In this document: one piece after another, positions 6,867 through 11,493 of the stretch
How positions within the stretch are numbered: the first letter of the stretch is position 1
Layout of the letters: the number at the start of each line of letters is the position of its first letter
Source: a virus
Strand: one strand, 5' to 3'
Virus record (IMG/VR): IMGVR_UViG_3300009504_000328
Location: 1 to 22,238 of that record
Length of the DNA: 22,238 nt
The notes under the pieces: model-generated
What the model was told of the DNA's origin: nothing
Seen by the model: only the letters and a program-made list of their open reading frames with translations
The model's database searches: none
Translations under genes and position numbers: made by a program

Positions 6867-9800
6867 ATGCCATACCCGAATCAACATGCGGCTCGGATTA
6901 GAGAGCCGGAGGGATTTATTAAGACGTCATTCATCACGAAGCAAATCGCTGCTGGGATCACGATAATCGCCGGCAAGCTGAAAAGCGGTGGGACGGCTCT
7001 TGTAACGCAGGCTTATAGATTCGCAAAGGACAAATATACCGCTTCGGCGGCAAAAGAGTGGATGAAACGGAATAAGATTAAGTATATCAAATTTGAGGAA
7101 GCTGAGGACACAAAAGACACAAACGAGGTGAACGATATGGCGAAAAAAGGCAAATTGGACAAAAATGAAATATATGCCACGATTCCAAATAGTATTGAAT
7201 CTATGTTAAACAAAATCAAAGACGCTATTGATAAAAATAATCCCTTTGGCATGTTGCGGGATAATGAATATGTAAGCGTTGAGGCTACTTTTGATGATTC
7301 TATAATAGTCTATAAATGGGGTGATGGAGAGCGCAAATATTATCAAGCTAAATGGAAGACAAATAAAGAAGGCGAGGTGGAGTTCTCAGATATAAAGCAA
7401 GTTGAAGTGAATGCGGTTATAAAAGTCAAAAATGAGATGCGCGAAAGAGCCGCTATGGTATCTTTGAATGAATCGGTTGATATGAATGAGACGATTGATA
7501 TTTCGTTCATATTAGAGAAGAAGGAAGAGGAAGCTGACGAATTAGAGAATTATTCTAGCAAGGCAATTTTCAAGCAAGAACATTCGGGTAATAATCGCGA
7601 ATATCCGCCGCAGGTAATGAAGGAGGCTATTGATGACGTAAAGAGCCGATTGCCGATTTTGATGGAGATACAGCATCCTAGAGATGGCAATATGGTGACG
7701 GATTTGGAGAAGACGGCGGCAATCATCAATAAAGTTGAACGCACCGATGACGGGCAGATAATACTTGAGGACATAAAGTTTGTGCCGACTGAGGCTGGTA
7801 AGACGATGTTTGGATTGTCTAAGACATTAGCGAAGTCGGGCGCAAAGTTAGGAATAAGTCAGAGGGCGACTGGTAAGTCGCATTATGTTAAAAACGAATC
7901 AACAGGGGCTGTCAAGGAAGTTGTTGACTGGCTACGAATCAAGAAATGGGACTTTACCGCTCCCAACGAACAGGGCGTTAAGGACGCACAATTTGAGCTA
8001 TTAATGGAGGAAAACGAGATGGCAGACAAAAAGGTATTGACCGAAGATGAAGTAACCGCGCTTTTGGGCGCGCAAAAGACTGAATTTATGACTATGATTG
8101 ATGAACTAAAAAATGCGCAAGCTGAACCGCCAAAGGTTGAAGAGCCGAAGGTTGAGCCAAAGCAGGAGAAGAAAGAAGAGTCAGATGGCAACAAGCTAAT
8201 CCTTGAGATGCAACAGAAGTTTAATGATGCAACAGAGAAGCTCAACCGTTTGACTCGTAAAGAGCAGATGACGGAACTCATCACAACTGGCACGAGGCTG
8301 ATGACTGAGGAACTAACGAAAGAGGATTATAAGCGATTCTCCGAAGCCGAAAAGAAGGTCTTGCTGGAGAGCGTAGATTTTGAGGTTGTATATCCGAAAG
8401 TTGATATGAGCAAGCCAGAAAGCATCACTGCTACGATTCTGGAATCGCTCAAAAACGAGATCAACCAGCTTGATAGGCTGATTGCGGCTTCTAAGCTCCG
8501 CGAGACGGGCTATCCGAAAAAGGGTACTGGCAACGGGATAACAAATGTCGAGGTGATAAATGAGAATGTTCCCGGCATGGAGCAAATCAAACGGCTAGAG
8601 AAAGACGTTGAACGCGCGATTGACCCGTACAATAAATACTGGAAACTCCCTGACGACCATCATGGACAGAGCGTTATCAATGAGATAATGAATAAGTATT
8701 ACAAGGACAATCATGAGAAGCTGATGCTGGAAGCAAACGAGGAATTCAAGCAGGATGATATAGGCGCGCGGATTGCGACAATCAACGCTGTTGTGATACC
8801 AGCGGCATTGAGACGATTGACGGCGATGAAGTTCTGCAATGTAGTGAACATGAAGGCATTGCTGGATTTTGTGCTGATAGAATCGTATGTGCCGACAATC
8901 GAGAGCAATGTTCATACCAATCTGGCATTATTCCAGCCAACTGAGGATGGGACGCTCACAATGGTTGGGTCAACCACCGTGGGCTATCCGATAGTTGCCA
9001 CTGAGAAAGGCTTCAGGACGATGATAACGACAAAGGCTATCGCTACAGCGAAAAATAGCGTTATTGATCCGGTGGTGATGTCAGTCGCGTCTATGGCGAA
9101 GCTAGGGGCGCAAATAACGGATCAGTACATATACGAATTTGTGATCGCTAGAACGCAGGGCTATGATGCTAGTGAGGTCTCGTCGTGGGAAACGCTGACT
9201 AAAGTAGGCGCTACGGCTGAATATCAGTCAGTCAATCAGGGCTGGATAAAGTATGAGCCATATAAGCATTATGACGGCAATGGCAACCCGGATGACGCGA
9301 AGCTCCTGAATCTGTTTGGCACGACATCGGGGAATGTATTGCAAAAGATTGAAATCGGTCATGGAGGTACTCCGACTGTGCTGACTTATGGGACGCATTA
9401 CACAATCAATTTTGCCGATGGGTCGGTGACATTGACCGCAGCGGGTGTTTCGGCTGTCTCAACTGACGATGTGAAGGCTAAATATTCATATACGAATAAC
9501 GCTAAATTCTGGAGCGTGACAGGCGGAGCGGGAACCGTGACGCTATATGACTGGCTCTTGAACTTGCAACAGATGATCGGGCAGGCAAAGGTATTGATTC
9601 GCAAGCGGCATTATGATCCAGATTTTGCCGTTGCGGGCATAACGGTTGAGGACTTGATTTCTAAGGGTCCGCAGTTTAACGCCTCGATGTCACAGCAAGG
9701 AAGCGTCAAGGACGCGTTGACTAATGTTATCACTTATGACGGCTTGCCGATGGACAGATCGGGCTGGGCGCCTGATCACTGGGTTATCGTTGGGGCTAAA

Positions 9801-9965
9801 GGCGCGGTAATCTTCGGCGTGCATACTCCGCCAATGGTTTCTGGACCTGTTGAAGACACAACGACTACGAGCAAGTATTACAAGTATAACGGCTTTACGG
9901 CTGTTGATGTGCCTGTGCCGGCGCAGTTCTCGCTGGTTGGCATCACAGATTTAGCGAGTTTATAA
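6867..9965 (+). CDS. Prohead protease-scaffold-major capsid fusion (1032 aa)
   Basis: One uninterrupted frame encodes what is usually two or three genes. Residues 1-90: an N-terminal domain (PYPNQHAARIREPEGF start) as seen ahead of phage proteases. 91-214: an unassigned insert. About 215-384: a T4 gp21-like serine protease with NNREYPP (242-248), catalytic His270 in EIQHPRDG and Ser331 in GISQRATG. 385-566: an acidic, Lys/Glu/Pro-rich then coiled-coil scaffold or delta region. About 567-1032: an HK97-type capsid protein with an inserted beta domain near 'THYTINFADGSVTL'. Strong internal ribosome-binding sites precede Met91 and Met385 in frame, so shorter products are likely. Candidate (L/I)XE cleavage motifs are LRE (544-546) and INE (564-566). 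Confidence 0.88.
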   Translation: MPYPNQHAARIREPEGFIKTSFITKQIAAGITIIAGKLKSGGTALVTQAYRFAKDKYTASAAKEWMKRNKIKYIKFEEAEDTKDTNEVNDMAKKGKLDKNEIYATIPNSIESMLNKIKDAIDKNNPFGMLRDNEYVSVEATFDDSIIVYKWGDGERKYYQAKWKTNKEGEVEFSDIKQVEVNAVIKVKNEMRERAAMVSLNESVDMNETIDISFILEKKEEEADELENYSSKAIFKQEHSGNNREYPPQVMKEAIDDVKSRLPILMEIQHPRDGNMVTDLEKTAAIINKVERTDDGQIILEDIKFVPTEAGKTMFGLSKTLAKSGAKLGISQRATGKSHYVKNESTGAVKEVVDWLRIKKWDFTAPNEQGVKDAQFELLMEENEMADKKVLTEDEVTALLGAQKTEFMTMIDELKNAQAEPPKVEEPKVEPKQEKKEESDGNKLILEMQQKFNDATEKLNRLTRKEQMTELITTGTRLMTEELTKEDYKRFSEAEKKVLLESVDFEVVYPKVDMSKPESITATILESLKNEINQLDRLIAASKLRETGYPKKGTGNGITNVEVINENVPGMEQIKRLEKDVERAIDPYNKYWKLPDDHHGQSVINEIMNKYYKDNHEKLMLEANEEFKQDDIGARIATINAVVIPAALRRLTAMKFCNVVNMKALLDFVLIESYVPTIESNVHTNLALFQPTEDGTLTMVGSTTVGYPIVATEKGFRTMITTKAIATAKNSVIDPVVMSVASMAKLGAQITDQYIYEFVIARTQGYDASEVSSWETLTKVGATAEYQSVNQGWIKYEPYKHYDGNGNPDDAKLLNLFGTTSGNVLQKIEIGHGGTPTVLTYGTHYTINFADGSVTLTAAGVSAVSTDDVKAKYSYTNNAKFWSVTGGAGTVTLYDWLLNLQQMIGQAKVLIRKRHYDPDFAVAGITVEDLISKGPQFNASMSQQGSVKDALTNVITYDGLPMDRSGWAPDHWVIVGAKGAVIFGVHTPPMVSGPVEDTTTTSKYYKYNGFTAVDVPVPAQFSLVGITDLASL
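7125..7139 (+). promoter_or_regulatory. Internal ribosome-binding site and start at Met91
   Basis: GAGGTG (7125-7130) lies 6 bases before an in-frame ATG (7137), at the junction between the N-terminal domain and the rest of the protease-capsid fusion. Initiation here would give a 942-residue product starting MAKKGKLDKNE. Confidence 0.5.
8006..8021 (+). promoter_or_regulatory. Internal ribosome-binding site and start at Met385
   Basis: GGAGG (8006-8010) is followed after 8 bases by an in-frame ATG (8019). It falls exactly between the protease domain and the scaffold region. Initiation gives a 648-residue scaffold-capsid protein (MADKKVLTEDEV) without protease, comparable in logic to the nested lambda C/Nu3 start. 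Confidence 0.7.
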
Positions 9966-10047: not shown

Positions 10048-11493
10048 ATGGCTAAGTTAAAGGATACAGTAGAATATCAGGACGCTATCGGTTCACGTGA
10101 CGATGCGGCATCCGCAGCCGCTGGGGCGTCATTGATTGCGTTACAGCGTCAAATTCTCGATACTGTCGGAGTATATGAAGGCGGGGCAGTAACGGCTATT
10201 CTAGGCGCGCTAAACGTTGCGGCGGCGACTGGCGCAGTTGGCACGAATAAGACGATGATGGCTTATCTGAAGCAGTTAGTCACCGAAGGCATCGCCAGAG
10301 ACGCGGTTATCGGCGCGAAGAATACCGCGGCGGCAACTGGCGCGATTAGCGATGAGAAGCTATTGATGGCTTATATCAAGCAAATTGTGACCGAAAGCAT
10401 CGCTAGGGATGGCGTTATTGGGTTAAAAGATACTGCCGCGGCAACCGGAGCGGTTACTGATGAAGACCTTATTATGGGCTATATCAAGCAATTAGTCACC
10501 GAAGGCATTGCCAGAGATGGCGTTATTGGGTTAAAAGACACTGCCGCGGCAACCGGGGCGATTAGCGATGAGAAGCTATTGATGGCTTATATCAAGCAAA
10601 TTGTGACTGAAGGAATCGCCAGGGACGCGGTGATTGGCTTGAAAGACACCGCCGCGGCAAGCGGCGCGGTTGGCGATGAAAAACTGTTGATGGCTTATGC
10701 TAAACAGCTAGTCACAGAAGGAATTGCTAGAGACGCGGTGGTAGGCGGCTTAACGGATGCGGCAAGCGATACCGTTGATGTGTCGACAATCGTGATGCTT
10801 TTGCGACAGATAGTCGAGGCGGTTAATAATGGCACAGGAGCGGCGATTGGAGAGAATTTATCGCTTGTTGACTTGTTAGGTGCGTTTGACGGTGGAGCCG
10901 ATCCACAGGGCGATATATTCCAAGCGCTTGGCGTTGACGAAAATAACTCAATAGTTGACTTATTAGGCGCGTTTGATGGCGACGCGGATCCACAGGGCGA
11001 CATCTTCCAAGCTCTTGGCGTGGATGAGAATAATTCAGTCAAGGATTTGATTGATATTGTTTTAGCGGCGCAACTGCCGAAGCTGGCAAAGAAAAAGGTT
11101 GATTATGACGGCTCGTCAGGGAACGGTCAGGCAGGCGTTGTTGTGCCTTTATTTACCGTAACCGGCGGCGTTAAGTTGAAGCTATACGCTATCTGTACGG
11201 ATGATTTAATAGAAGGCGAGGGTGATGGCACAACTGAGGTTGGCATAGTCGGGACAACCGATGCGCTGATAGCCACGACTACATCAGCCGCTATAGACGA
11301 GGGCGAGATATGGCATGACGCCTCTCCAGACGCTAAAGTGGAACTCGAATCTGTCGCGACAGAATATATACTTGGCGATGGGCAGAATGTTATCCAGACA
11401 ATTACTACCCGTAACATTACCGATGGGACGATAGAGTTTTGCGTTGAGTGGACGCCTTTGACGGCTGATGGCGATGTGACGCCTGTATCGTAA
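10048..11493 (+). CDS. Repeat-rich structural protein, putative capsid decoration/head fibre (481 aa)
   Basis: No enzyme motif. Residues 60-239 are five tandem 36-residue repeats with core MAYIKQLVTEGIARDAVIG and linker KDTAAATGA, likely helical. Residues 272-329 are two 29-residue repeats (LLGAFDGGADPQGD... ALGVDENN). The C-terminal domain (about 345-481) is beta-rich and clearly paralogous to the whole next gene, sharing EIWHDASPDA, CTDDL and a common strand order. ATG 10048 has GGAGG 8 bases upstream. Its place directly after the capsid gene and before the connectors suggests a virion surface protein; the shared C-terminal domain would be the capsid-binding or trimerising part. A fibre-like role is inferred, not shown. 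Confidence 0.7.
   Translation: MAKLKDTVEYQDAIGSRDDAASAAAGASLIALQRQILDTVGVYEGGAVTAILGALNVAAATGAVGTNKTMMAYLKQLVTEGIARDAVIGAKNTAAATGAISDEKLLMAYIKQIVTESIARDGVIGLKDTAAATGAVTDEDLIMGYIKQLVTEGIARDGVIGLKDTAAATGAISDEKLLMAYIKQIVTEGIARDAVIGLKDTAAASGAVGDEKLLMAYAKQLVTEGIARDAVVGGLTDAASDTVDVSTIVMLLRQIVEAVNNGTGAAIGENLSLVDLLGAFDGGADPQGDIFQALGVDENNSIVDLLGAFDGDADPQGDIFQALGVDENNSVKDLIDIVLAAQLPKLAKKKVDYDGSSGNGQAGVVVPLFTVTGGVKLKLYAICTDDLIEGEGDGTTEVGIVGTTDALIATTTSAAIDEGEIWHDASPDAKVELESVATEYILGDGQNVIQTITTRNITDGTIEFCVEWTPLTADGDVTPVS
10225..10764 (+). repeat. Five tandem 108-base coding repeats
   Basis: Each unit encodes 36 residues of the form ATGA[IV]xDEKLLMAYIKQ followed by [IL]VTE[GS]IARD[AG]VIGLKDTAA. Units 2-4 are the most alike, also at DNA level (shared ATTAGCGATGAGAAGCTATT). 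Expansion by unequal recombination or slippage is likely. Confidence 0.9.
10861..11034 (+). repeat. Two tandem 87-base coding repeats
   Basis: Units 10861-10947 and 10948-11034 each encode 29 residues beginning S[LI]VDLLGAFDG and ending ALGVDENN. They are nearly identical in protein and very similar in DNA. Confidence 0.88.

Follow-up and report, generated by a model that had tools for sequence, protein, structure and literature searches.

A probable internal translation start at the protease/scaffold border of a viral protease-scaffold-capsid fusion gene

The protease gene C of bacteriophage lambda is annotated with an internal in-frame start, that of nu3, which gives a shorter product sharing its C-terminus and stop codon with the long one. 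The short product of lambda is scaffold only, the protease is of the S49 type, and the capsid protein E is encoded by a separate gene. The herpesvirus genes UL26 and UL26.5 similarly encode a long protease-scaffold protein and a shorter scaffold protein sharing its C-terminus; the short form is produced from its own promoter and transcript, and the capsid protein is separate. In T4-like phages, the protease, scaffold, and capsid protein are encoded by the separate genes 21, 22, and 23. In phages HK97 and T5, the scaffold is carried within the capsid protein (PMC3185693).

The stretch of DNA analysed here, referred to as the window, is a virus record of 22,238 bp in which protease, scaffold, and capsid protein are joined in a single open reading frame (ORF), located directly downstream of the terminase and portal genes. 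The features of the ORF are as follows.

6867..9965, + strand: fused ORF of 1032 amino acids with an N-terminal add-on, S77 prohead protease, scaffold, and HK97-fold major capsid protein (one open frame; domain matches; hhalign homology to Rctr41k-type fusions)
6867..7103, + strand: N-terminal "YPNQHAARI" domain, residues 1-79 (tblastn, motif scan)
7125..7139, + strand: second candidate internal start, GAGGTGA followed by ATG 7137 at residue 91, MAKKGK (Shine-Dalgarno scan, motif scan)
7554..7958, + strand: T4 gp21-like (peptidase S77) protease domain (alignment, phrog_207 match, structure model)
7674-7676 (CAT), 7857-7859 (AGT), and 7950-7952 (GAC), + strand: predicted catalytic His, Ser, and Asp, respectively (alignment)
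8006..8010, + strand: internal Shine-Dalgarno sequence GGAGG, kept in relatives
8019..8021, + strand: internal ATG start, codon 385, of a predicted 648-residue scaffold-capsid protein (MADKKV), in frame with ORF 6867-9965
8019..8504, + strand: approximate extent of the helical scaffold segment in the short form (AlphaFold2 model)
8565..9965, + strand: major capsid protein part, approximate, its start set at a possible cleavage site between INE and NVPG (PDB folds, Pfam matches in relatives)

The division of the ORF into protease, scaffold, and capsid parts had been proposed from the sequence alone, and it is supported by PHROG and PDB matches, the AlphaFold2 model, and the Pfam matches of relatives. 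The full-length window protein gave nothing significant against Pfam and NCBIfam. A search for its close relatives returned only an identical contig (L001) from the viral contig collection and none from the genome contig collection. The protease part (residues 210-384) matches the head maturation protease family PHROG 207 (phrog_207) with an E-value of 3.6e-11, and its structure model, with a pLDDT of 86, has T4 gp21 (5jbl) as the top PDB match (E 6.5e-5). All 39 aligned sequences share the predicted catalytic His, Ser, and Asp, and 38 of them, all except the window, have a Pfam PF03420 match at E 0.01. Residues 9-162 of the short form were modelled mostly as helix, with pLDDT values mostly of 70-80, and the approximately 160 mostly helical residues at the start of the 648-residue protein are consistent with a scaffold. 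The model of the scaffold-capsid protein is of low confidence in its middle part (mean pLDDT 51); the best PDB folds for the capsid part of this low-confidence model are T4 gp23* (8gmo), followed by other HK97-fold capsid proteins, with E-values of about 3e-4. All structure models were built from alignments of the window and the loci fetched in the scans only. Pfam Gp23 (PF07068) is matched by 9 of 35 aligned relatives. The ORF is thus a fused, single-gene version of a T4-like 21-22-23 set.

Two annotated fusions were found by tblastn, in Virus Rctr41k_30 and in Brevibacillus phage Emery (gp6). When the window protein was compared with the Rctr41k family using hhalign, the probability of homology was 93% for the C-terminal capsid part and 68% for the protease part. 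Residues 561-638 of the Rctr41k_30 protein (L009:3796-6411) match the phage tail tube NCBIfam model NF052337, and a PHROG with an Ig-like domain is matched by 29 of 35 relatives. The capsid part seems to contain an inserted beta domain.

The sequence-only reading had placed a ribosome-binding site, GGAGG separated by 8 bases from an in-frame ATG, at the border between protease and scaffold. This description is exact: the elements occupy positions 8006-8021, with the spacer AAAACGAG at 8011-8018. An additional in-frame ATG at 8004 overlaps the internal Shine-Dalgarno sequence. The downstream gene of the same virus, starting at 10048, has a nearly identical ribosome-binding site, GGAGGAAAGATAA-ATG. 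Within the fused ORF, only two in-frame ATGs are preceded by a match to the anti-Shine-Dalgarno sequence of at least 5 nt, those at 7137 (GAGGTGA) and 8019 (GGAGG). However, among the + strand ATGs of the window, 7.9% have a match of at least 5 nt ahead of them, and a start with such a match is present in 10.8% of 40-codon control intervals from ORFs of the fusion family. The match at 8019 is only 5 nt long, and the mRNA around it folds no more weakly than its own synonymous recodings (z -0.4). Taken alone, the site in the window is unremarkable and constitutes weak evidence. It is judged to be more than chance because homologues keep the same arrangement.

The borders of Rctr41k_30 and Emery gp6 read AAGGAG-ACGACGAA-ATG and AAGGAGG-ATGATAAA-ATG, respectively. 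Scans of sequence collections provided about 80 Rctr41k-like and 12 Emery-like loci, one of the latter being a lone protease. The comparison set comprised 95 ORFs: 82 resembling Virus Rctr41k, 12 resembling Brevibacillus phage Emery, and that of the window. It includes L088, in which protease and scaffold are fused and the capsid protein has its own gene. Since a few of the loci overlap, having been cut from the same contig, the tests were run on dereplicated sets. All 95 ORFs have, at the protease/scaffold border, an in-frame ATG or GTG preceded by an anti-Shine-Dalgarno match of at least 4 nt. Among 44 representatives sharing less than 70% identity, the match reaches at least 5 nt in 40 and at least 6 nt in 23, whereas synonymous recoding of the whole interval predicts 16.6 and 8.3 (p 9.7e-17 and 2.8e-12, respectively, values that are optimistic since the representatives share ancestry). 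In 3374 control intervals, the corresponding frequencies are 10.8% and 3.0%. The start was taken as the one with the best Shine-Dalgarno match within the junction interval, which favours a match, and the control intervals and the synonymous null were given an equal choice. With the start chosen at the junction in the same manner, all 14 sequences below 50% identity have at least 5 nt. Conservation of the Shine-Dalgarno sequence beyond synonymous-site expectation, the check proposed together with the site, is thus strongly upheld.

The peptide encoded at the border varies, with 38 distinct 5-mers in the five residues before the internal start among the 44 representatives. For example, AGGAGG is found within the codons of SRRKHI, AAGGAG within those of QGEFE, and AAGGAGG within those of KEENT; in L074, the pair Arg-Arg is encoded as AGG AGG. 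The codon phase of the Shine-Dalgarno sequence differs among the fusions. GTG takes the place of ATG in six representatives, although GTG accounts for only 10-47% of the valine codons in those ORFs. The mRNA structure at the border is -9.5 kcal/mol, compared to -17.4 kcal/mol elsewhere in the same ORFs; it is weaker than the control mean of the respective ORF in 44 of 44 representatives and, across the representatives, weaker than that of synonymous recodings (p 2e-4). On the basis of these sequence comparisons, what is conserved at the border is a nucleotide signal. The ATG at 8019 is very probably a real internal translation start, and the gene would be read both as a long protease-bearing form and as an abundant short scaffold-capsid form.

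It is conceivable that only the full-length protein is made, that the protease cuts itself off near the border, and that GGAGG is incidental. Of the 44 representatives, 29 carry a motif of two hydrophobic residues followed by Glu-Ser at a distance of 6-17 residues upstream of the internal start (background 5.3%). The motif looks like a cleavage site and suggests that the protease may cut itself free there. The window carries LME at residues 379-381, ahead of the internal start. For the T4 cleavage pattern [LI]xE there is little enrichment ahead of the internal start: it occurs in 25 of 44 representatives, against a background of 44%. Autoproteolysis alone, however, gives one protease per capsid subunit, and it leaves both the excess of Shine-Dalgarno matches over synonymous expectation and the exchange of ATG for GTG unexplained. 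As the sole explanation it is improbable; self-cleavage and internal initiation are compatible and may well operate together.

A lower probability still is given to the idea that constraint on the protein maintains an acidic, EEDDE-like linker ahead of the scaffold, the codons of which mimic a Shine-Dalgarno sequence. Many members are indeed rich in Glu and Asp here, and under the synonymous null a match is already expected in 16.6 of the 44 representatives, but 40 were observed. The signal is also reached through other peptides, such as SRRKHI, GRRGKK, TGDPPT, HKESVT, and AKKESN, in different codon phases. Least probable of all is a decaying relic of an ancestral gene border that lost its stop codon and is no longer used; the sequence-only reading had entertained a fossil of such a border. 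Viruses with divided genes agree with such a history: in L113, protease, scaffold, and capsid protein are all encoded by separate genes, as they are in SCTP-2, where GGGAG precedes the ATG of the scaffold gene. L088 (L088:1-1572) is an architectural intermediate, in which protease and scaffold are fused, with AAGGAG and GTG at their border, and are followed by a separate gp23-like capsid gene. A fossil would erode, but all 95 fusions, and divergent families, retain a Shine-Dalgarno sequence and start. An ancestral gene border is supported only as history, and the non-functional relic is rejected because the site is kept across divergent sequences with changing peptides and swaps of GTG and ATG.

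Internal initiation at the border is also indicated by fusions that join an HK97-type protease to an HK97 capsid protein, for which the second comparison used phage CRP-831 and 80 IMG/VR loci. The border Shine-Dalgarno match is at least 4 nt in 16 of 16 representatives and at least 5 nt in 11 of 16; the frequencies in control intervals are 28% and 8.7%, respectively. In one example, the peptide KKEVK before the ATG is encoded by AAAAGGAGGTCAAA. Synechococcus phages S-CBS1/3 have the border ATG without a Shine-Dalgarno sequence ahead of it, and S-CBS1 was scored as a 4-nt match only via a nearby GTG. In 199 genomes of one phylum, the NF045541 profile of these fusions gave weak partial matches only. 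The annotation of CRP-823 divides its protease-capsid ORF (L007:4335-7263) into two overlapping "major capsid proteins", with the split upstream of a YPNEHAAR motif, unlike that of CRP-831.

The N-terminal YPNQHAARI domain of the window protein was not seen in other S77-type fusions and was found inside HK97-type protease-capsid fusions, carried by S-CBS1/3 and the Roseobacter phages CRP-821, CRP-822, CRP-823, and CRP-831. It is apparently a mobile domain. The anti-Shine-Dalgarno match ahead of ATG 7137 is 7 nt, the longest in frame within the fused ORF, and the MAKK start at residue 91 resembles the first methionine of Rctr41k-type fusions. These two properties suggest that the YPNQHAARI domain is an add-on and that three nested starts are possible, with a possible third nested product of 942 residues initiated at ATG 7137.

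The short protein would be made in excess of the long one, and the following assembly and cleavage steps are proposed. Initiation at the upstream start or starts would produce the long protease-scaffold-capsid protein, whereas the 648-residue scaffold-capsid protein initiated at ATG 8019 would be the bulk subunit of the shell. The long form may co-assemble through the scaffold-capsid part shared by both forms, and therefore could be a built-in means of admitting proteases to the procapsid in limited number. Their copy number there would depend on how often each of the two starts is used relative to the other. Once assembly is complete, the protease would remove both itself and the scaffold by cleavage.

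An internal start would explain how a single fused protease-capsid gene avoids a 1:1 ratio of protease to capsid protein. With some reserve, we favour the wider reading that protease-scaffold-capsid fusions arose more than once, each keeping or gaining a ribosome-binding site at the border, that dual initiation is a general and recurrent way of dosing the procapsid protease, and that three nested starts (6867, 7137, and 8019) are present here. Internal initiation also predicts that annotated fusions in many phages hide an unannotated short capsid protein that is the true major capsid protein, to which automatic annotation and structural studies of capsids would otherwise assign a wrong N-terminus. 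The prediction can be tested cheaply in cultured phages such as Brevibacillus phage Emery and Roseobacter phage CRP-831. A literature search found no paper stating an internal start in protease-capsid fusions; its coverage of subscription journals was poor, and a prior report is possible.

Among the systems compared, Rctr41k_30 and Emery gp6 share with the window the single ORF containing an S77 protease, scaffold, and capsid protein, and the Shine-Dalgarno sequence and ATG at the border. They differ in their low identity to the window, about 18-20% across the aligned region, and in lacking the N-terminal YPNQHAARI domain. The HK97-type prohead protease/major capsid protein fusions of NCBIfam (NF045541/NF045540) are likewise encoded by one ORF, with an internal Shine-Dalgarno sequence and ATG in CRP-831-like members, but their protease and capsid families differ from those of the window, which gave no match to either model in an NCBIfam scan (curated cut-off for NF045541). 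The T4 genes have the same order and encode a protease of the same fold (5jbl) and a capsid protein of the gp23 kind; in the window, the corresponding parts are fused into one ORF. The herpesvirus pair resembles the proposed products in their shared C-terminus and differs in its separate transcript and capsid protein. As in the lambda C/Nu3-type layout, the window has an in-frame internal start with a ribosome-binding site at the protease/scaffold border and a shared stop codon; unlike in lambda, the predicted short product contains scaffold plus capsid protein, and the protease is of the S77 type. The in-frame nesting of a protease and a scaffold gene has its established precedent in lambda C/Nu3, of which the arrangement in the window is a variant.
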